A stretch of 64,000 nucleotides of DNA from Streptomyces sp. BA2. GTDB lineage: Bacteria > Actinomycetota > Actinomycetes > Streptomycetales > Streptomycetaceae. Positions 34,373 to 43,025 of the stretch are shown piece by piece (positions within the stretch are counted from its first letter, which is position 1; each line of letters begins with the position of its first letter). Both the position numbers and the translations under genes were made by a program. Location: NCBI RefSeq assembly GCF_009769735.1, contig NZ_WSRO01000002.1, positions 1,612,001 to 1,676,000 of the forward strand, read 5' to 3'. The notes beneath the pieces were generated by a model. It saw only the letters and a list, made by a program, of their open reading frames with translations, was not told the DNA's origin and ran no database searches.

Positions 34373-34425
34373 GCCCCACGGCCCAGCCCACTTGCCGCGG
34401 CAGCCTTGGCCAAGGGTTGGGGACT

Positions 34426-34440
34426 GGGGTCATCCCTAGG
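34426..34440 (+). promoter_or_regulatory. Shared motif copy 1 (GGGGTCATCCCTAGG)
   Basis: This 15-mer lies 97 bases upstream of the small gene at 34537 and heads the LuxR transcription unit. It matches the motifs at 37771-37785 and (minus strand) 43002-42991 in the pattern GGGGTYATCCCT; after it comes GTGACTCCCCGAAG, echoed by GCGGTTCCCTGAGG at copy 2. It is probably a regulator site or promoter element of a local regulon. Confidence 0.6.
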
Positions 34441-34536
34441 TGACTCCCCGAAGCGCGGCCCCGACCGGGGTTCATACCGTGGCGCTGTCGCGATGTGTCA
34501 CGGTTCGGGGCCTGTACCGGCCCTCGGGAGGACGTT

Positions 34537-34746
34537 GTGCGCTACGTCATCGAGGTGTTCCGCTCCCCCGGGGGCGTGCACGGCAATGTGGTGGATACGG
34601 GCTGCGAGGATGGGGACACGGGCCACTGCACGCCGTTTCACGGCTGGCTGGAACTGCTCGCGCTGCTCGAACCGCCCCCGGACGCCGCGTCCGCGGAAGC
34701 CGGAGAACACCCTTGCGCGGCAGGTGATGACTCCTGTGGCGCCTGA
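34537..34746 (+). CDS. Small conserved-looking protein (69 aa)
   Basis: A GTG at 34537 with GGGAGG 6-11 bases upstream opens a 69-codon frame with normal streptomycete codon bias. The product starts MRYVIEVFRSPGGVHGNV and contains FHGWLELLALLEPPP, a pattern I associate with small streptomycete proteins of unknown role. Four Cys residues (GCEDGDTGHC and HPC..DSC) could bind metal or form disulfides. It ends 155 bp before the LuxR start and lies on the same strand behind shared motif copy 1, so the two may be co-transcribed. Confidence 0.6.
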   Translation: MRYVIEVFRSPGGVHGNVVDTGCEDGDTGHCTPFHGWLELLALLEPPPDAASAEAGEHPCAAGDDSCGA

Positions 34747-34901
34747 TGCCGCCTCGCGTGAACCGGCTCCTCGGGAGTGGGGAAACCGCTTGTACCGAGA
34801 ACAGTTCCGGCAGCATTGTGGACGTTCAGGGCCATGCGCCCGGCACGGGTCACCGTCACAGTCATGGCGCCCGTACCGGGTGCCGACATGTGGGGGCGGT
34901 G

Positions 34902-37733
34902 ATGACGTCCGGCGACATACTGAACGGCCATGTCCACGCACCGGCGCCCCATGAGGCGTTCTCCGGTCGTACGCGCGAACTCGCGGCGCTCCAGGAGGAG
35001 TTCCGCCACGCGCGCGAGGGTGCGCCGCGGCTCGTCCTGATCGACGGGCCCGGCGGCATCGGCAAGTCCGCGCTGGTGCGCAGGTTCCTGGACACGGCGG
35101 GCGACGCCTGTGTGCTCCAGGCCAGCGGCGAGGAGAACGAGAGCGTGCTGCCCTGCGGGGTGCTCGCCCAGTTCGTCGGGCAGAGTCCGATCCCGCTGCC
35201 CGACTGCCTGGGTGTGCTGGTCCGCACGCCCCGCTCGGCGCCCGGCACCCTGCCGCCGCTCGCGGCCGGCTTCGGTCTGCTCGACCTGCTGAGCGAGCTG
35301 CAGGACAAGGGCCCCGTCATCCTGGTGCTCGACGACGCCCACTGGGCCGACTCCGCGTCGCTGAACGCGCTGACGTTCGCGCTGCGGCGGCTGCGCGTCG
35401 ACAAGGTCCTCGCGATCGTGACGGCGCGGGACCCGCAGGCGCCCCAACTGCCGGACGGCATCCGCAGGCTGCTCGCCGACGTCCGCACCCGGCGCATCCC
35501 GTTGCACGGGCTGACCCCGGACGAACTGGGCTCCCTCAGCGCGCAGATGGGCAGCGACCGGCTCCCGCACTCCGCTTCCGTACGCCTGCGTGACCACACG
35601 CACGGCAACCCACTGCATGCCCGCGCCCTCCTGGACCAAGTGCCCGCGCACGTCCTGCGGGACGTCACCACACCACTGCCCGCGCCGCGTTCGTACGCCA
35701 TGCTGGTGCTCGCCAACCTCGCGGAGTGCGGGCCCCAGGCGCTGCGGCTCGTCCAGGCGGTCAGCGTGCTCGGGCTCTCCTGCCCGCTGAGCGTGGCCGC
35801 CTCGCTCGCCCGCGTCACCGCACCGCTGCCCGCGCTCGAACGGGCCGTCAAGGCAGGCCTGTTGAAGGAGACGCAGCCGGGGGCCGCACCCGAGATCGCC
35901 TTCCCGCACCCCCTCGTCCATGCCGCCGTCTACCAGGACATCGGCCCCGCGCACCGCGCCGATCTGCACACGCGGGCCGCCGCCCTGGTCGACGACGAAT
36001 ACGCGAGTCTGCGCCACCGCGTGCTCGCCGCCACGGGCCCCGACGAGCATCTCGCCGCCGCCCTCGCCGCCTGCGCGAGGCGCGAGGCCGCCACCGGACA
36101 GTGGGCGGTGGCCGGCACCCACCTGCGGCACGCTTCCCGCGTGGCGACGACCGACCTGGAGCGCGACCGGCTCGCCGTCGAGGCGGTCGAGGCGCTGCTG
36201 CTGGACGGCCGTGTGCACGAGTCGGCCGAGCTCGCCGCGGGGCTTCCGGCCGGCGCGGACCCGGCGCTGCGCGGGTACGTACGCGGATATGTGGCCCGCG
36301 TCCAGGGCCGCATGGAGCAGGCGCAGACGCTGCTCGTCGACGCCTGGAACCAGTGCGACCACGAGAGCAACCCCTCGCTCGCGGCGCGGGCGGCGGAGCA
36401 GCTGAGCTACGCCGCCGTGATGCGGGGGCGTTCCTCCGACGCCGCCCAGTGGGCGGAGCGCGCCCAGCGGCTCTCCACCCTCCAGGGGCCGAGCCGGATG
36501 CTGCGCTTCAACCACCTTCTCGCGCTGGGCCTCAGCGGGTGCGCCAAGAAGGGCATCGAACTCGCCGGTGACCTTCCCGATCCGCTCCTCGTGCCGCCCG
36601 CGAACATCGATCTGCTGCTGGCACGCGGCCAGTTGAGGCTGTGGTCGGACGATCTCCTCGGCGCACGCGCCGACTTGCTGGGTGCCGTGGCCAACTGCCG
36701 CAGGGGGACGGTGCCGTTGCGGCTGCTCTCGGCCTCCGCGCTCGCCCAGACCCTGCACCGGCTCGGCGACTGGGACGAGGCACTGATCCACGCCGAGGCG
36801 TCCGCCTCGATCGCCGACGACACCGAGCAGTCGTGGCTGAAGCCCGTCACGCACGCCATCGCCAGCTGGATCCTCTCGGCACGCGGCAGCTGGGACCGCG
36901 CGTCGGTGCACCTGCGGCTCGCCCTGGACGCGCCCGGCTGCGACGAGAGCGCGCTGGCCTACGCTTACGCGGCGTCGGCGCACGGGGCCTTCGCCGAGGC
37001 CCGCGCGGAGCCCGAGCGGGTGGTGGATGCGCTGCGGCCGCTCCTGGACTTCGCCTCGCACGACGGGGTGAACGAACCGGGCGTGGTGTCCTGGCGTGAG
37101 CTCCTGGTCGACGCGTTGATCCAGCTCGGCGATCTCGACGAGGCTCAGGCGGTCCTTCTGCCCTACGAGGAGCGGGCGCAGGCACGCGGGCAGCACGCGG
37201 CGCTGTCCGCCGCGGCCCGGGTGCGGGGCAATCTGCACGCCGCGCGCCGGGAGACGGACCGGGCCCAGGCGTCGTTCCTGCGCGCGCACGACCAGGCGGC
37301 GCAGATCCCGTCCCCGTTCGGCCGCGCCCGCGTCCAGCTGGACCACGGGGCGTTCCTGCGCAGGATCGGCCGCCGCTCGGTAGCCGTGGCGCAGCTGCAG
37401 GCGGCGTACACGACAATGCGCGAACTGGACGCCGGGCCCTATCTCGCGCGGTGCGAACGGGAGTTGGACGCCTGCGGGCGTGCGGCGCCCCCGCGGCCCG
37501 CGCACGACCCGGCGGACGTGGACTCCGCCGCCGAAGGGCTCACCCCGCAGGAGCTCGCCGTCGCGCGCCTGGCGTCGCAGGGCTTCACCAACCGGCAGAT
37601 CGCCACCGCGCTCGCACTGAGCGTCAAGACCATCGAGTACCACCTGGGCCACACCTATACGAAGCTCGGCATCACCTCGCGCATCGGGCTCGTGCACCAC
37701 TTCGCCCCCCAGGACCGGCGCACGTCGTCGTAG
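34902..37733 (+). CDS. LAL-type LuxR family transcriptional regulator
   Basis: A 943-residue large ATP-binding LuxR regulator. An N-terminal AAA/STAND ATPase carries Walker A GPGGIGKS (residues 49-56) and Walker B VILVLDDAHWAD (about 139-150). A long helical, TPR-like middle follows, and the C-terminus is a LuxR helix-turn-helix (LTPQELAVARLASQGFTNRQ with IATALALSVKTIEYHL, residues about 880-930). The frame is open further upstream, but the ATG at 34902 precedes the domain directly; the ribosome site (GGGGGCGG) is only fair. LAL proteins usually activate nearby pathways. Here the SARP gene follows 135 bp downstream with its own copy of the shared motif. Confidence 0.9.
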   Translation: MTSGDILNGHVHAPAPHEAFSGRTRELAALQEEFRHAREGAPRLVLIDGPGGIGKSALVRRFLDTAGDACVLQASGEENESVLPCGVLAQFVGQSPIPLPDCLGVLVRTPRSAPGTLPPLAAGFGLLDLLSELQDKGPVILVLDDAHWADSASLNALTFALRRLRVDKVLAIVTARDPQAPQLPDGIRRLLADVRTRRIPLHGLTPDELGSLSAQMGSDRLPHSASVRLRDHTHGNPLHARALLDQVPAHVLRDVTTPLPAPRSYAMLVLANLAECGPQALRLVQAVSVLGLSCPLSVAASLARVTAPLPALERAVKAGLLKETQPGAAPEIAFPHPLVHAAVYQDIGPAHRADLHTRAAALVDDEYASLRHRVLAATGPDEHLAAALAACARREAATGQWAVAGTHLRHASRVATTDLERDRLAVEAVEALLLDGRVHESAELAAGLPAGADPALRGYVRGYVARVQGRMEQAQTLLVDAWNQCDHESNPSLAARAAEQLSYAAVMRGRSSDAAQWAERAQRLSTLQGPSRMLRFNHLLALGLSGCAKKGIELAGDLPDPLLVPPANIDLLLARGQLRLWSDDLLGARADLLGAVANCRRGTVPLRLLSASALAQTLHRLGDWDEALIHAEASASIADDTEQSWLKPVTHAIASWILSARGSWDRASVHLRLALDAPGCDESALAYAYAASAHGAFAEARAEPERVVDALRPLLDFASHDGVNEPGVVSWRELLVDALIQLGDLDEAQAVLLPYEERAQARGQHAALSAAARVRGNLHAARRETDRAQASFLRAHDQAAQIPSPFGRARVQLDHGAFLRRIGRRSVAVAQLQAAYTTMRELDAGPYLARCERELDACGRAAPPRPAHDPADVDSAAEGLTPQELAVARLASQGFTNRQIATALALSVKTIEYHLGHTYTKLGITSRIGLVHHFAPQDRRTSS

Positions 37734-37770
37734 GCCGTCGCAGGCCCCCAGGCCCGGGCCCTGGCACACC

Positions 37771-37785
37771 GGGGTTATCCCTGGG
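37771..37785 (+). promoter_or_regulatory. Shared motif copy 2 (GGGGTTATCCCTGGG)
   Basis: It lies 83 bases upstream of the SARP gene at 37869, between the LuxR and SARP genes. Sequence and spacing to the gene resemble copy 1. Confidence 0.6.
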
Positions 37786-37868
37786 CGGTTCCCTGAGGCA
37801 CCCCTGCCGCTGTCCGGCGTAGTTTCTTGGCTGGTCAGGGGATGTGATGCACAAGTGGGGGTGCACAG

Positions 37869-38615
37869 ATGGCTGTCACGGAATGTCCGGCGGTATGCGG
37901 CGACGCTCCACCGGCCCTGCGTCTGCGGCTGCTCGGGGGGTTTCACCTCAGCCGCGGCGAAGGTGACGGCGGCGGGCAGGTCGACCTGTCCGCCAGCGGG
38001 CAGCAGTTGCTCGCCCTCCTCGGGCTCCGCGGCCCCGCGACACGTTCGGTGCTCGCGGGGACCCTGTGGCCCGACGTCATCGAGGAGCGTGCGCGGGCCT
38101 GCCTCCGTACCGCCATCTGGCGCCTCAACGCGGCGAGTTCGGCCGTCGGCGGCCCCCGGCCCGGGGTGCTCGCGCTCAGCCGGCGCGTACGGATGGACAT
38201 CCAGGACTTCACCACCACGGCACATCGCATACTCGCGGCCCCGGCTGAGGGGACCGGGGCCGCGTGCTCCTCACTGATGGGCATGGGGGAGCTGCTGCCC
38301 GGCTGGCATCAGGACTGGGTGGTGTTCGAGCGCGAGCGGTTGCATCAGCTGCGGCTGCACGCGCTCGAAGCCCTTTCGGCGCGGCTCGTCGTGCGCGAGC
38401 AGTACGCCCCCGCCCTGGAGGCCGCCCTGGAGAGCACCAGGATCGATCCGCTGCGCGAGAGCGCGCACCGTGCGGTCGTGACGGTGCACCTCGCCGAGAA
38501 CAACCTCGCGGAGGCGGTACGGCACTTCAAGGCGTTCCGCAGGCTGCTCCGCACGGAGCTCGGCATCGAACCCTCGGAGCAGTTCCGCACGATGGTGCGG
38601 CGCGCGCTGACCTGA
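37869..38615 (+). CDS. AfsR/SARP family transcriptional regulator
   Basis: A 248-residue regulator. Residues about 16-95 form the OmpR-like winged helix (LRLRLLGGFHLSRGEG, QQLLALLGLRG, RSVLAGTLWPDVIEERARACLRTAIWRLN). Residues about 105-245 form the bacterial transcriptional activation domain (TPR-like BTAD: LLPGWHQDWVVFERERLHQLRLHALEALS, ESTRIDPLRESAHRAVVTVHLAENN, TELGIEPSEQFRTM). SARPs typically activate secondary metabolism or differentiation genes, but no biosynthetic genes lie here. A target in the adjacent convergent cassette is possible. The stop is followed by a strong hairpin at 38863-38905. Confidence 0.9.
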   Translation: MAVTECPAVCGDAPPALRLRLLGGFHLSRGEGDGGGQVDLSASGQQLLALLGLRGPATRSVLAGTLWPDVIEERARACLRTAIWRLNAASSAVGGPRPGVLALSRRVRMDIQDFTTTAHRILAAPAEGTGAACSSLMGMGELLPGWHQDWVVFERERLHQLRLHALEALSARLVVREQYAPALEAALESTRIDPLRESAHRAVVTVHLAENNLAEAVRHFKAFRRLLRTELGIEPSEQFRTMVRRALT

Positions 38616-38862
38616 CGGACGGACACGACGGGGAGGCGGGGCAGCCATGGTGAACGGGACCGCAGCGAGGGTTCCTCAAGAACGGGTGACGCGCCACCAC
38701 GTCACCGACGGCCTGTCTGTCCGTGCGCGCTCGGGGGCGCACGGGCCGCAGGTCGTACCACCCACCCCTGCCGGCCGTGTTGGGGGACGCGGTCGGCAGG
38801 CCACCGACGTTCCGCCACGCACGGTCACGGGGGTGCCGAGCGCGGTACGGGGACGCCGGTAA
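38616..38862. other. Gap after the SARP gene
   Basis: Together with the hairpin that follows, this makes a 323-bp gap between convergent genes. A 71-codon frame at 38647-38862 has a fair ribosome site, but its codon bias is poor for this genome, so I do not call it. Nothing else stands out. Confidence 0.5.
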
Positions 38863-38905
38863 CGGTGACGGCCCCGGCAGGCGATGCCTCCCGGGGCCGT
38901 CACCG
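38863..38905. terminator. Bidirectional hairpin between convergent genes
   Basis: A 15-bp perfect stem (CGGTGACGGCCCCGG, 38863-38877, with 38891-38905) encloses a 13-base loop that itself can form AGGC/GCCT. It lies between the SARP gene (+) and the cassette end (-) and probably terminates both. Confidence 0.78.
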
Positions 38906-38938
38906 CGTTCCCCCTTTCCCCCCTTCATTCCCCCTGCA

Positions 38939-40357
38939 TCACTCCCCTCGCGGCCTCCTGAGCTCCTCGATCGCCCTGTCGACCGCCTTGTGCGGCAGGC
39001 CGGTCATCCGTGACAGGTCCTTGGCCTCCATGCTGCTCAGTACGTCGTCCACGCTCTTGTCCTCGACACTCGCGATCTCCCACACGTAGCGCTGGACCCT
39101 GTCGACCGGATCGACGAGCCGGGACCGCCTCGCCGCGAGGACGTCCCCCGCCACCGGCGCGACGAGGCCGCCCCGCGCCGCGATGCCCGGCCGGGGCTCC
39201 TGCTCAAGCCAGGTCGTCCACACGCCGCGCCCGACCATGTGTTCCGCCGCGCTCTCGGCCACCGAACCGTCCTGGAGGATGCCCGGGTCGGCCGAGTCCG
39301 CCCGGACCAGGAGGCGGCAGGAGGCCGCGAGCATGGGCGGTGACGCGACCGGCGGCACCGGCTCACCGAGCAGGGTGCGCAGCGCGGCGATGTCCGGCTG
39401 GTCGGGGGCGTACTTGACGAGTCGGTCCAGGATGCCGCGGATCCGCCCCAGATCGGGGGTCGGGTGCAGCAGCAGGGCATGGGCCCCGATGATGCCGAGG
39501 AAGGGGTTGACGCTCCGTGCGTCGAGCAGGCCGTGCAGCTGCCGCGTCGACACGAGGTCGATCCCCTGCCGCAGCCCCGAGAGCGCGGCCTCCAGGGCGA
39601 GGTCCAGGGTGCGGTCCGCCGGCTGCCACCCGATGCCCTGGGGCACCATCTGGATCGAGGCGAACTGCGGCTGCGGGCCCTGCGGTCCGTTGCTCACGAA
39701 CACCAAGGTCGTCCACCCGTCAAGGACGTGCAGCGCCTGCGCGAGGCGCAACCCGTCGGCGGGCTGCCTGCGTGTCCTCAACCGGTAGCCGCCGGGCGGC
39801 AGTTCGCCGCTCCAGGCCGACCACTCCTGTCCTCCGGAGGGCTCCCAGCCCCCGGCGCCGCCGTCCACGGGCACGCCGTGCTCGTCGGCGACCTCCAGGG
39901 CGAACGGGTCGAGCTGCCAGCCCCGGCGCAGGTTGCGGATGAGCACCATCAGGGTCGGCGGGCCCCCGCCGTGCGTCGCCTCCGCGCTCCAGCGCATCGC
40001 GGCGGCGCGGTGGTCCTCGCAGGTCGTGGGGGTGCCCTCGACCGGTGTGGCCGTGGGCATGCGGGGCAGCGCGAGCCGCTCGACGAAGGGTTCGGTGCCG
40101 ACCTCGACGAACCGGCTCTCCACCTCGCCGCCGAACCGCTGCTCGATGCGGTAGATGCCGGGCGGCAGCGTCGTGTCGATGGTGCCCATCGCGTGCGCCA
40201 CCTCGTGGAACGCGGAGTCCGTGACGGTGACGAGGACCGACGGGGTGTCCGGTATGACGACGAACGGCACGCGCTTCGCGGTCTCCTCCCGGGCGCGCCG
40301 CCGCTCCTTCGCCGCCTCCTCCCGGACGCGCCGCCGCTCTTCAGAGCTGGACACCAT
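38939..40357 (-). CDS. Uncharacterised protein of the caspase/hydrolase cassette
   Basis: A 472-residue protein I cannot assign to a family. Residues about 3-30 are a charged coiled coil (EERRRVREEAAKERRRAREE). Two beta-rich modules follow, each with a PG-x-Y turn: TTLPPGIYRIEQRF (about 62-75) and GELPPGGYRLRTRR (about 190-203). The preceding caspase has the same turn near its end (LAPGLYRATPE). The middle is helical, and the end (LSRMTGLPHKAVDRAIEELRRP) resembles a helix-turn-helix or adaptor helix pair. Its start overlaps the caspase stop by 17 bp, so the two are translationally coupled. The shared modules suggest that the two proteins bind the same target or each other; this is inference. 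Confidence 0.75.
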   Translation of the reverse strand: MVSSSEERRRVREEAAKERRRAREETAKRVPFVVIPDTPSVLVTVTDSAFHEVAHAMGTIDTTLPPGIYRIEQRFGGEVESRFVEVGTEPFVERLALPRMPTATPVEGTPTTCEDHRAAAMRWSAEATHGGGPPTLMVLIRNLRRGWQLDPFALEVADEHGVPVDGGAGGWEPSGGQEWSAWSGELPPGGYRLRTRRQPADGLRLAQALHVLDGWTTLVFVSNGPQGPQPQFASIQMVPQGIGWQPADRTLDLALEAALSGLRQGIDLVSTRQLHGLLDARSVNPFLGIIGAHALLLHPTPDLGRIRGILDRLVKYAPDQPDIAALRTLLGEPVPPVASPPMLAASCRLLVRADSADPGILQDGSVAESAAEHMVGRGVWTTWLEQEPRPGIAARGGLVAPVAGDVLAARRSRLVDPVDRVQRYVWEIASVEDKSVDDVLSSMEAKDLSRMTGLPHKAVDRAIEELRRPRGE

Positions 40358-41411
40358 TCCCACCGCCTGTCATTACCTCGAAGAATCCACGGTTCTGGAA
40401 GTCGTCCGCCGTCAAGCTCTCCGGCGTCGCCCGGTACAGGCCCGGGGCGAGCTTCTCGACGCGTTCCGTGGCGTCGACGAGCAGCCTGAGCGGTGGCTCG
40501 TCGGGGTCGCCGCCGCGCAGCTGCACCCAGCCCCGGAATCCGTCAGGGAAGCGCAGCGTGACGGCTGGCATGCCGTTCTCCACGTCACGGGCGAAGACCA
40601 TCGGAGCGCTGCCCTTGACGAACCTGGGCTGCTGCGGGACCAGCAGGTGCCTGGTGCGGTCCTCCACATGCCGTACGACGTAGTCCGCGAGGCTGTCGGA
40701 GGTGATGAGCCCCTTGCGGTTGGCGCTGCGACCGCCGAGGCCGTCGAGGAGCGCGGTCGTGAAGTGCCCGCGCGCCAGGTCGGGTTCGGCGTTCTGTTCC
40801 TCGTAGGCCGGGTCGCCTTGCGAGGTGGCGTACCCGACGAAGCAGTCGACCTTCTCCAGCGCCCCCGCTGTCGAGGTGAAGGGCGGCCCGAAGGGGAACA
40901 TGGAGCCGTTGCCGCTGCTCGTACGGCAGCAGTCCGCGAAGCAGACGATCTCGCGGAACGGCGACGACGACTCGTACCAGTCCAGGTACTGGCCCACGGC
41001 GAGGTGGTTGCCGAGCAGGTCGAAGGCGGCGTTGGCCATCAGGAGGGCGGTGCTGTTCGGGGGCGTCAGGAATCCGTGCCCCGCGAGGAAGAAGTAGAGA
41101 CGGGTCCGCTGCCTCGCGGCCTCCCACTCCTCCTCGGGCCGGTCCTGTATCGCCAGCTGGACCGCGATGTTCGCCCGGTAGAGCGCCAGATCGACGTTCT
41201 CTCTGGTCGGTACGGCGCTCATGAAGTCGGCGACGCGCTCCTGCTCCTCGGTGGCGGTGACCAGCGTGACGTTGCCTTCGGGCACATCGCCTCCCTCGGG
41301 GTCGACGAGCCAGTCCCGGAACCGGACCGCATCACCCCGCGCGGCCTGAAGGTCACTGATGGCCGGATAACGGTTGATGCCTACGACCACGGCGTAGTGC
41401 AGGTCGTTCAT
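40341..41411 (-). CDS. Caspase family protease (peptidase C14-like)
   Basis: A 356-residue protein with a caspase-like domain at residues about 5-245. It opens YAVVVGINRYP, carries the catalytic His in FFLAGHGFL (His112) and the catalytic Cys in CFADCCRTSS (Asp160-Cys161-Cys162, the D-x-C pattern of metacaspase-type enzymes). LARGHFTTALLDGL is the usual late helix. Residues about 270-356 form a beta-rich tail with LAPGLYRATPE, like modules in the downstream protein. Substrate preference cannot be read. GGGGAGAG lies 5 bases before the ATG, and the hydrolase stop is 33 bp upstream. Bacterial caspases are often effectors activated by partner proteins in stress or defence settings. Confidence 0.87.
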   Translation of the reverse strand: MNDLHYAVVVGINRYPAISDLQAARGDAVRFRDWLVDPEGGDVPEGNVTLVTATEEQERVADFMSAVPTRENVDLALYRANIAVQLAIQDRPEEEWEAARQRTRLYFFLAGHGFLTPPNSTALLMANAAFDLLGNHLAVGQYLDWYESSSPFREIVCFADCCRTSSGNGSMFPFGPPFTSTAGALEKVDCFVGYATSQGDPAYEEQNAEPDLARGHFTTALLDGLGGRSANRKGLITSDSLADYVVRHVEDRTRHLLVPQQPRFVKGSAPMVFARDVENGMPAVTLRFPDGFRGWVQLRGGDPDEPPLRLLVDATERVEKLAPGLYRATPESLTADDFQNRGFFEVMTGGGNGVQL

Positions 41412-41444
41412 CGGACTCTCCCCCTACGTTCAGTCCTCGCGCCG

Positions 41445-42941
41445 TCAGTCCGCGAGCATCGCCGCCACGCTCGCGAGGACCTGCGGGTCGTCGTCGAACG
41501 CGGTGTGGCTGCGCGCCCCCGCGTCCAGGCCCGGCGACCAGACCGTGCGCGCGGAGTCCGCCCGCAGGAAGCCCCGCAGGTCGTCGGAGCCGGGTCCCGG
41601 GGCGGCGGAGTCGAGGTACCAGCGCTGCATGCCCGCGATCGGCGTGACCACGGACTGCCCGGACGGCCCGCGCTCCAGGACTCCGGAGATGAAGTACAGC
41701 AGCGACCTCGGGTACAGGAACGGCACGAGGTGGTCGGCCTGCTCCGCCCTGTCGGTCATGGTGAACATCCGGAACCGGTCGAAGAGTTCGGCCTGTCGGC
41801 GGACGACCGGCGCGAGCTGCGCCACCGTGCAGGCCGGCGCGAGGAGGACCACGTCACGCAGCCGGAAGTCGGCGGGCAGGGGGTCGTTCTCCGCGGCGCG
41901 CCTGCGCACGAGGTCGTCGAGGAGGTTGCTGATGAACACGGCGCCCGCGCTGTGGCCGACGACGGTCACCTGGGGGCGGGTGCCGGCGGCGAGCAGCTCG
42001 GCGAACCGGTCCAGGAAGTACCGTCCGGCGCGGACCTCGTCGTCCGCTGCGGCGAAGGTGTCCGCGGTCTGCCGCTTCATCGCGCCCCAGATCGCGGCGC
42101 CCACGTTGGCGAGGTAGAACTCGCGGAGGATCTCCTCGACGACCGTCGGATAGAGCCCGTGGTCGTTGCGCTGCCGGAAGCGGCCTACGACGGCCGCCAC
42201 GACCCGCACGGTCTTGCGCACGATCAACGCGGTGCTCACCAGGGCACGTTCCCCCGTGCCCGCCCTGTCCGCGAGGTCGGCCACGACGTCCGGTGACATC
42301 AGTGTGGCCGCCGCGGCACGCCCCCCGATGATGTCTCGCGCCGCGGCGACCGGCTCTGTGGGTTCGGCCCCGGCCTGGGGCGTCACCGAGTTCACGATCT
42401 CCCGTGTGCGCTCGGCCAGTTCGGTGTCCGCCGAGAGCTCGGCGGCGATCTGCCTCTGCTCGACCTCGTTCAGCGGGGGCACCTCATGCGGGGCGGTCAG
42501 CCGCGCGTAAGGCTCCTGCCCCGCTCGTACTTGGGCGAGTTCGGCTGCTACGGCCCTCGGGGAAGGGGTGGTCACCGCCCCGAGGGCTCGCTGTCCCGGC
42601 TCCCGGAAGACGGTGCCGGTGGCGTAACGCGTGACCCTGTTGAGCAGCGTGCGGAAGACGCTCTCGTTCAGGATCTGCGGCAGGTTGCCCCGCAGGGTCT
42701 CCAGGAGCCCGCTGCTCCACACGAAGAAGACGGGCTCGGCGCCCGCCGCCTCGTACATGGGCGCGAGCCGCTCGGCGGTGGCGAACCCCAGCATGTCGTC
42801 GGTGAGTCCACCGTGGAAGTGGAGCACCACGCGCGGCCGGTCCTTGAGCCCGGCCACGAGCTCGTCGATGTCGGCGGTGGTGGTCGAGGCGAGTCGACCG
42901 CTCTGCCTGCTGTGGATGCACCGCTCACGGTAGGAAGCCAT
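41445..42941 (-). CDS. Alpha/beta hydrolase fold protein of the caspase cassette
   Basis: A 498-residue serine hydrolase-like protein. The oxyanion-side motif VVLHFHGGLTDD (residues about 38-49) is followed by a long helical insertion. The nucleophile elbow VVGHSAGAVF (Ser331 in GHSAG) comes next, with a late His-Asp region (RSHTAFDDDP, about 476-485) that could complete the triad. The insertion (about 90-300) is unusual for a simple esterase and may form a lid or partner surface. The start is uncertain: ATG at 42941 or 42977, neither with a ribosome site. I prefer 42941 because the shared motif at 43002-42991 then sits about 50 bases upstream. It is the first gene of the cassette. Confidence 0.78.
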   Translation of the reverse strand: MASYRERCIHSRQSGRLASTTTADIDELVAGLKDRPRVVLHFHGGLTDDMLGFATAERLAPMYEAAGAEPVFFVWSSGLLETLRGNLPQILNESVFRTLLNRVTRYATGTVFREPGQRALGAVTTPSPRAVAAELAQVRAGQEPYARLTAPHEVPPLNEVEQRQIAAELSADTELAERTREIVNSVTPQAGAEPTEPVAAARDIIGGRAAAATLMSPDVVADLADRAGTGERALVSTALIVRKTVRVVAAVVGRFRQRNDHGLYPTVVEEILREFYLANVGAAIWGAMKRQTADTFAAADDEVRAGRYFLDRFAELLAAGTRPQVTVVGHSAGAVFISNLLDDLVRRRAAENDPLPADFRLRDVVLLAPACTVAQLAPVVRRQAELFDRFRMFTMTDRAEQADHLVPFLYPRSLLYFISGVLERGPSGQSVVTPIAGMQRWYLDSAAPGPGSDDLRGFLRADSARTVWSPGLDAGARSHTAFDDDPQVLASVAAMLAD

Positions 42942-42990
42942 GCCCAGGAAGGTAGAGCGGCGGCGCTGCCGCGACATCGGGGACGGGCTC

Positions 42991-43002
42991 AGGGATAACC
43001 CC
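42991..43002 (-). promoter_or_regulatory. Shared motif copy 3 (GGGGTTATCCCT, minus strand)
   Basis: The 12-mer reads towards the hydrolase-caspase cassette, 49 bases before its preferred start. It is identical to the first 12 bases of copy 2 and differs from copy 1 at one position. Confidence 0.6.
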
Positions 43003-43025
43003 GGACCGGAAACGGCCGGGAGCGG

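Follow-up and report, generated by a model that had tools for sequence, protein, structure and literature searches.

Among described bacterial systems, two come closest to the locus reported here. In the vWA-MoxR-VMAP systems, every VMAP-linked caspase has an alpha/beta-hydrolase gene next to it, according to the accessible part of Kaur et al. 2020 (PMC7159879). In Canu (KaeCanABC), as far as the accessible text of Tuck et al. 2025 (PMC12799240) goes, a MALT1-like caspase with an immunoglobulin (Ig) tail and its partner CanB activate a gated nuclease; the system confers protection from phage T4 and needs both presumed cut sites for it, and the gating insertions hold conserved glycines that are taken as caspase sites. 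Our subject is a cassette of Streptomyces sp. BA2 (genome of 10.04 Mb), lying in a 64,000-nucleotide stretch of contig NZ_WSRO01000002.1 (positions 1,612,001 to 1,676,000) that is called the window hereafter. It consists of three successive minus-strand open reading frames (ORFs) that encode a putative alpha/beta hydrolase, H (510 amino acids), a caspase-like protease, C (356 amino acids), and a third protein, T (474 amino acids). With slightly more confidence than doubt, we read it as a compact caspase-switch operon in which T would sense or scaffold, C would be the protease, and H would be a protease-gated lipolytic effector. The cassette appears to be real, conserved, and unnamed in the literature searched: neither the H family, nor T, nor the trio was found there, in a body of papers that included the accessible parts of PMC8195603, PMC10910872 and PMC5978004 and lay mostly outside subscription papers and preprints.

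The three-gene unit and its proteins

The original prediction, made from the letters of this DNA, had placed three minus-strand genes here, and they stand in the window's ORF list as described (Table 1). The 17-bp overlap that it gave for C and T holds with an in-frame ATG as the start of T; from the GTG start two codons earlier the overlap is 23 bp. For the survey of H, the H alignment was run against the species contigs of GTDB without requiring C or T to be present. Of the 85 relatives found the best 80 were kept, giving 79 loci among which our own genome may be missing, and the ORFs of these loci were searched with C and T profiles. The case had been staked beforehand on the three genes recurring together, and by this profile search they do: C and/or T lie beside H in 69 of the 75 loci with room for them. 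Over the 79 loci C was found in 68, T in 67, and all three genes in 66, counting L010, whose C and T matches are one 182-amino-acid deletion remnant, and L079, which holds broken H and C fragments only. Eleven loci are without C. Three of these (L043, L052, L054) end at most 134 bp after H and a fourth (L080) has 1.2 kb left; in L060 T stands upstream of H and the contig begins inside T; the other six (L021, L064, L070, L073, L077, L078) are orphan copies of H, each with at least 5.9 kb beyond it. L073 is counted as an orphan, and its reading as a C1-peptidase fusion was rejected because the N-terminal extension reads as a non-coding upstream frame.

The gene order is H-C-T save in L018 (C-T-H) and L060 (T-H). 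Gaps and overlaps were counted in 62 loci with starts called mechanically (first ATG, GTG or TTG), leaving out our own L001 as well as L010, L015, L018 and L065. The H-C gap has a median of 5 bp and is at most 100 bp, or an overlap, in 61 of the 62; in 56 of the 62 the reading frames of C and T overlap, some of these overlaps being overstated because of the mechanical starts. C and T are fused as a single ORF in L065, L125 and L131. The pairwise distances of the three proteins are correlated (r 0.93 for H-C, 0.90 for H-T and 0.91 for C-T; 61 loci, truncated and broken rows left out), and none of 999 permutations reached the observed values. The nearest named relatives in the H tree are Streptomyces. 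By record title the tree covers 11 phyla; the trio occurs in nine, since the Cyanobacteriota and Acidobacteriota rows are all orphans, and several of the nine are represented as metagenome-assembled genomes. That a caspase-centred operon should occur with a single architecture in nine phyla while neither its H nor its T matches a curated family over cut-off shows that a good deal is missing from the inventory of bacterial protease switches.

The modelled structure of C has a caspase/paracaspase fold, for which MALT1 is the best match both by structure and by profile; the best Foldseek matches of the model are MALT1 caspase-Ig3 constructs. The VIA comparison aligns C with MALT1 over residues 1-276 only; the beta-sandwich tail shows up in the model and the Foldseek alignments. 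The His-Cys dyad of the caspase superfamily (C14) is predicted in the p20 motifs as H112 and C162. A caspase-like protease with His112 and a D-C-C nucleophile site (here D160-C161-C162) had been proposed, and both catalytic residues are indeed kept across the loci, as is the catalytic serine of H (Table 1); loss of these residues in close relatives would, by the terms set beforehand, have counted against the case. The sole exception at Cys162 is the remnant L010, and R163 is present in 68 of 68 loci. Pfam assigned no family to C of the window (Peptidase_C14 matches 29 of 56 alignment members), the NCBIfam model of EACC1-associated caspases (NF047832) gave 59 bits against a cut-off of 140, and C matches a caspase model in PADLOC. 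Acidic residues are conserved wherever the letter is present: D27 in 66 of 66, D160 in 67 of 68 (the remnant L010 again being the exception) and E204 in 65 of 65. A profile alignment places D160 and E204 on acidic residues of MALT1 that we take to be part of its Arg-binding pocket. C is predicted to cut after Arg or Lys before a small residue, a specificity that we treat as a prediction because the role of these acidic residues in Arg recognition is our assumption. Extra weak caspase-profile matches were seen at most a few kb from some cassettes (L065:13848-14852, L076:3727-4998 and L037:3039-4982), and P0041, L010:2417-2965 and L079 are deletion remnants or frame-broken copies of C-T, which suggests an occasional loss of the module.

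In H the motifs of an alpha/beta hydrolase can be recognised: an oxyanion-type HGG (H55-G56-G57), a nucleophile of the GxSxG type (G341-H-S-A-G345), with 288 residues from H55 to S343, and a putative acid (D409 or E412) and histidine. HGG and GHSAG had both been read correctly from the sequence. Over the 79 loci H342 and E412 are invariant (79/79), H491 is kept in 76 (3 gaps) and D409 in 73. The exceptions are S343G together with H55A in L020, S343I in L070, H55E in L040, and six substitutions of D409. Pfam gave sub-threshold matches to alpha/beta-hydrolase profiles only, with DUF900 at 14.5 bits under a cut-off of 20.5; DUF900 matches in 4 of 54 alignment members. We read H as a serine hydrolase, probably a lipase or esterase.

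T matches no Pfam or other curated family over cut-off. Its model shows two beta-sandwiches, a helical domain, in which the NP-x-LG block has a predicted local distance difference test score (pLDDT) of 73-94, and a tail, which is where the family varies; in the VIA comparison residues 30-105 were the only part of T that was well tested. A coiled-coil start had been described for T, together with an end like a helix-turn-helix (HTH). The former is not general, the head before the first sandwich being anything between 0 and 83 residues long in other loci (counting mechanical starts, without the fused L065); the latter agrees with the model helices of residues 408-469, and weak sub-threshold HTH matches occur at this end in a few relatives. 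PG-x-Y motifs are present in the C tail (G324/Y326) and twice in T (G69/Y71 and G191/Y193), and both models have beta strands there. Beta modules shared by C and T had been proposed on these motifs; the motifs and modelled strands stand, but their reading as homology was dropped. When the profile of the C tail was compared with that of T, hhalign gave a non-significant probability of 3.8%, and for this reason we claim only a likeness of motif and predicted fold.

Table 1. Position of the cassette, its motifs and domains, and the accompanying regulators in the window
Feature	Position	Strand	Evidence
H, alpha/beta hydrolase (putative), first cassette gene	41445..42977	-	ORF, motifs and conservation
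H, oxyanion-type HGG, residues 55-57	42807..42815	-	H55 76/79, G56 77/79, G57 78/79
H, insertion between HGG and nucleophile elbow, ~residues 95-280, candidate gate	42138..42695	-	
H, Arg130-Ala131, first candidate caspase cut site	42585..42590	-	
H, Arg244-Ala245, second candidate caspase cut site	42243..42248	-	
H, nucleophile Ser343 in GHSAG (predicted)	41949..41951	-	77/79; exceptions L020 (Gly) and L070 (Ile)
C, caspase/paracaspase-like protease, 356 amino acids	40341..41411	-	
C, catalytic His112 (predicted)	41076..41078	-	67/68 (1 gap); 75/75 database alignment rows
C, catalytic Cys162 in D-C-C-R (predicted)	40926..40928	-	67/68; 75/75 database alignment rows
C, C-terminal beta-sandwich tail, ~residues 280-356	40344..40574	-	model strands 283-330 and 343-346
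T, third protein, 474 amino acids, scaffold/sensor candidate	38939..40363	-	adjoins C in relatives; model pLDDT 77
T, beta-sandwich 1, residues 32-101, Ig/CnaB/transthyretin-like	40061..40270	-	
T, beta-sandwich 2, ~residues 138-241	39641..39952	-	predicted strands; PG-x-Y G191 67/67, Y193 63/67
T, helical domain, residues 251-374, NP-x-LG block	39242..39613	-	model helices; D324 62/67
T, HTH-like tail, residues 408-469, the family's variable end	38957..39142	-	model helices
SARP/BTAD regulator accompanying the cassette in Streptomyces relatives	37869..38615	+	BTAD E 7.9e-15
LuxR-type AAA regulator accompanying the same block	34746..37733	+	AAA_16 and GerE

Candidate cut sites in H and exchangeable partners

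All but 3 partial ones of the 68 caspase-linked loci, hence 65, were measured for the stretch from HGG to GHSxG, which is 258-298 residues long in them. About 185-190 positions of the insertion are missing in two relatives that are fused to a C1 peptidase (L121 and L122), which fits the insertion of roughly 200 residues that had been noticed in H. In these records (L121:6528-8726 and L122:6606-8660) a papain-type C1 peptidase and an H-type hydrolase domain without the insertion form one protein; four further plasmid records are annotated alike, and long ORFs in G416, G239 and G320 resemble the fusions by length only. Within the insertion of caspase-linked H, position 130 is Arg or Lys in 66 of 68 (one Pro, one gap), the next residue being Gly, Ala, Ser or Thr in 66 of 66, and position 244 is Arg or Lys in 67 of 68 (one gap), followed by Gly, Ala or Ser in 67 of 67. 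When all columns of caspase-linked H are scored for a basic and then a small residue, these are the top two (1.00 for 244, 0.99 for 130); the third column, 424-425, next to or in the core, scores 0.82 and all remaining ones at most 0.33. As background, Arg or Lys is followed by Gly or Ala in 272 of 1291 cases over residues 95-265 of H. Among 120 listed database relatives, position 130 is basic in 109 (6 gaps, 5 other) with a small residue next in 108 of the 109, and position 244 is basic in 114 (2 gaps, 4 other) with a small residue next in 113 of the 114; counting gaps as misses, the pair occurs in 108/120 and 113/120, respectively. The six orphans have Arg or Lys at position 130 in two cases and at position 244 in four, a basic-small pair at position 130 in one protein and at position 244 in another, and both sites together in none (0/6). 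The invariant Arg266 of H has bulky residues after it and is retained in the orphans as well. The pattern at residues 130 and 244 has the look of two protease sites bracketing a removable gate, and paired basic-small dipeptides of this kind would be expected in a caspase-activated pro-hydrolase. They provide two concrete candidate cut sites in H that are directly testable.

The mechanism that we propose starts from T as a sensor-scaffold, whose two beta-sandwiches and helical domain would hold C and whose exchangeable tail would meet the trigger or would carry extra effectors. Once T is triggered, C would be released or clustered. The insertion of about 200 residues would restrain H until C cuts at Arg130-Ala131 and Arg244-Ala245, and the freed H would attack lipids or other esters, with growth stop or cell death as the outcome, the likeliest occasion being phage attack or another insult. 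For such a gated hydrolase we see somewhat better than even chances; the C1-fused hydrolases without insertion, the other enzymes beside C-T, the effector-type tails of T, and the sporadic presence of the cassette, with an empty site in L153, support it. Alternatively, H might not be activated by C at all, the two being parallel effectors recruited by T, or H might regulate C. This arrangement, which we judge rather improbable, would agree with the presence of other enzymes beside C-T elsewhere and with several observations that weigh against our own proposal. The six orphans keep an insertion of similar length, so the insertion is not in itself tied to the caspase. L020 has lost Ser343 and H55 yet keeps C, T and the basic-small sites, and the chemistry of H is therefore dispensable in that locus. 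Also, several orphans are long-branch rows of the tree, because of which their loss of the sites may partly be plain divergence; the rows of H are related sequences and hence not independent; the correlation of distances includes shared species history; and the profiles of the C tail and T are not significantly alike. On the other side, long-branch rows that are caspase-linked, such as L042 and L071, still hold both sites. Parallel action is further opposed by the tight spacing of H and C, the co-variation of the three distances, the paired sites that go with C and are not kept in orphans, the C1-fused hydrolases without insertion, and the gated-nuclease precedent of Canu, as given in the accessible text of PMC12799240.

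The partner enzymes of C-T are exchangeable. In place of H, C-T stands beside an Endonuclease_NS-trypsin protein in L126 (Sinorhizobium mexicanum) and beside a subtilase in L127 (Mesorhizobium huakuii); a small metallopeptidase of the matrixin/astacin type directly precedes the fused C-T in L125:6286-9694 (S. terangae) and L131:5300-8313 (Cupriavidus); and in L111 (a Streptomyces) the neighbour is a GHSLG hydrolase alignable with those adjoining VMAP caspases. The four plasmids on which C-T lies beside other enzymes were not among the H matches. The tail of T is likewise replaced. In Bradyrhizobium cytisi (L030:5309-8815, plus strand) T runs on in the same frame into an almost entire GroEL (residues 648-1148), which scores 718 bits against a solved Cpn60, and in a Variovorax (L076:11383-13992, plus strand) T is joined to an EF-Ts with the CETDFVA segment retained. 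The tail carries leucine-rich repeats (LRR) in L071, a thermolysin domain in L020, trypsin and PLD domains on plasmid pOM4 (L119:11552-16935, plus strand), where a separate trypsin-like gene comes next, and trypsin with Endonuclease_NS in L124:11580-15338 (plus strand). Most T tails scanned gave no Pfam match. In L020 (Streptomyces pseudovenezuelae GGS1), where H is without its nucleophile serine and HGG histidine, the thermolysin domain of T has HELTH intact; an effector swap from H to this domain is possible, and the locus can also be cited for parallel action of H and C. The GroEL and EF-Ts tails, the most unexpected finding of all and each seen once, could each be a decoy, a docking partner, or an accidental fusion. 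A protease-hydrolase pair with an adaptor, as originally predicted, is still the best-fitting anatomy, but the replacement of its tail by other domains makes it probable that T is not just an adaptor. The swapped tails (GroEL, EF-Ts, LRR, proteases, nucleases) lead to direct hypotheses on triggers and effectors.

A broader speculation, to which we allow only a slim chance, is that C-T would be a general chassis of bacterial caspase signalling, in at least nine phyla, with T as a receptor with plug-in tails. GroEL and EF-Ts would then be integrated decoys, imitations of housekeeping proteins that invaders target or borrow, and the effector slot would be exchangeable, taking a doubly cut pro-hydrolase, a nuclease-trypsin, a subtilase, or a metallopeptidase. 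If this were true, bacteria would possess in C-T an equivalent of the integrated-decoy immune receptors, one that drives a MALT1-like protease.

Distribution and genomic context

Of 199 Streptomyces genomes, 3 have H and 5 have T (one marginal); the C profile matches in 64 of the 199, with four places at or above 199 bits and all others at or below 86. Over the phylum H was found in 4 of 246 genomes, three of these matches being long ORFs of C1-fusion length, and T in 4 of 396, two of them marginal. A LuxR-type and a SARP regulator gene adjoin the cassette in 10 of the 11 loci L002-L012, the contig of L003 ending before them. In one of four relatives' regions (L153) the genes bordering this block lie about 0.5 kb apart and the block is absent, neither regulator having a match there; the other three regions keep too few border genes to tell. 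The spacing in L153 indicates that some 8.65 kb (34373-43025), comprising both regulators and the cassette, were gained or lost together. The cassette diverges more than most of its flanks (in L002, 82% identity for H, 76% for C and 74% for T versus 89-96%), and in the farther relatives L004-L012 SARP is as diverged as the cassette (61-69%). Along the H tree the phylum label changes six times for Pseudomonadota, three times for Chloroflexota, and once each for Actinomycetota and Bacteroidota. The trio was found on three plasmids (L119, L123, L124) and on a predicted viral contig of IMG/VR (L118:2331-10149), 2.3 kb from a phage-type integrase; YqaJ-like and methylase-like genes, named by eye, are also nearby on L118. 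The E. coli genomes gave no DNA match to the Vibrio cassette (a homologue is present in Vibrio sp. MEBiC08052, L045).

An immune role of the cassette is suggested by analogy. It might instead be a stress, developmental or housekeeping module, in which T would read an internal signal and C would process H or other proteins in differentiation or envelope stress. We think this unlikely, albeit an alternative to be reckoned with. It would suit the fixed position of the locus in the Streptomyces clade beside LuxR and SARP regulators, and the same holds for two results that speak against our proposal: 50,697 phage records gave no match to the one H query used, and the neighbours are not defence genes. 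Among 108 of 201 picked immediate neighbours, five PADLOC families matched at 1e-10, with 1-2 proteins each, and the Pfam content of the neighbours is mixed and largely housekeeping. A defence-island argument was looked for in these 108 neighbours and dropped; the outcome is the lack of a defence-gene signal rather than a measured depletion, because no control neighbours were scanned and 93 of the 201 were left out. A housekeeping module is in turn difficult to reconcile with the sporadic presence of H, its label changes in the tree (with only one each for Actinomycetota and Bacteroidota), the faster divergence of the cassette than of most flanks, the exchanged partner enzymes and tails, and the trio's presence on plasmids and beside an integrase on a viral contig.

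Comparison with known systems

The original prediction did not recognise the cassette as a described system. This is true of the trio as such, which was not found in the literature searched, and less so of its parts, for which there are precedents in the accessible portions of two papers, namely the caspase with an alpha/beta hydrolase (PMC7159879) and Canu (PMC12799240). The cassette and the vWA-MoxR-VMAP systems both have an alpha/beta-hydrolase gene immediately upstream of the caspase, and in the VMAP-linked hydrolases the part preceding the GHSxG elbow is of similar length. They differ in that the caspase of those systems is fused to VMAP and has MoxR and vWA partners, according to the part of the source available. 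Filing the cassette with them was rejected, there being no VMAP-C, vWA or MoxR match in the cassette or five flanking genes. The VMAP-linked hydrolases gave no H-profile match at E 0.05 or better, T was not found among them, and the comparison of H with their profile is weak (probability 40%, 67 columns); they apparently belong to another family than H. VMAP-C is present in 49 of 61 Streptomyces, and this genome has four VMAP-C matches, none of them in the cassette. Filing as an EACC1-caspase was rejected on the NF047832 score given above and on the lack of an EACC1 match in H or T; such two-gene systems, as described in the accessible part of PMC7159879, also combine a caspase with variable C-terminal domains, on one component, whereas in the cassette the variable domains are on T and not on the caspase. 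The cassette could in principle be a degenerate outlier of the vWA-MoxR-VMAP or EACC1 systems that has lost its NTPase partners, given the common caspase superfamily, the upstream alpha/beta hydrolase, and the coupling in L111 of C-T to a hydrolase alignable with the neighbours of VMAP caspases. We hold this to be very improbable in view of the missing VMAP, vWA and MoxR domains, the location of the genome's VMAP-C matches elsewhere, the hydrolases that are not demonstrably one family, and the score of the EACC1-caspase model far under its cut-off.

Human MALT1 shares with C the caspase fold (modelled in C), acidic residues near the cysteine, and an Ig-type domain after the protease. C has 21% identity to it over the aligned part and is without death or N-terminal Ig domains, and the further beta-sandwiches of the cassette sit on the partner T. 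The cassette brings together a MALT1-like protease and partner domains of predicted Ig type in bacteria, and the origin of caspase-Ig signalling becomes testable in small bacterial operons. Four loci with TIR-caspase pairs (L128-L130, L156), which we presume to be Thoeris (ref. 56 of PMC12799240), resemble the cassette in their small caspase-family protease and compact operon; in these the TIR gene is upstream and neither T nor H is annotated or matched beside the caspase. Filing as a TIR-caspase operon was rejected, no TIR match being present in the cassette or five flanking genes.

Canu was considered as well. No Pfam match to a metallo-beta-lactamase (MBL)-fold pro-nuclease was found in the cassette or five flanking genes, and the trio was not filed as Canu because this nuclease is absent; among the plasmid records opened after the plasmid searches with C and T, no caspase-MBL (canu) loci were recognised. 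So far as the accessible text on Canu allows a comparison, its effector is the MBL-fold nuclease CanC, while that of the cassette would be an alpha/beta hydrolase and is encoded first; and a defence-island signal is reported for Canu, while none was found for the neighbours of the cassette. The likeness, within the same part of the source, consists of the MALT1-like caspase with a C-terminal Ig-like fold, as modelled in C, and of the paired-site pattern in H. By analogy the trio may well work like Canu, offering a predicted lipid- or ester-hydrolysing executioner where Canu has a nuclease.

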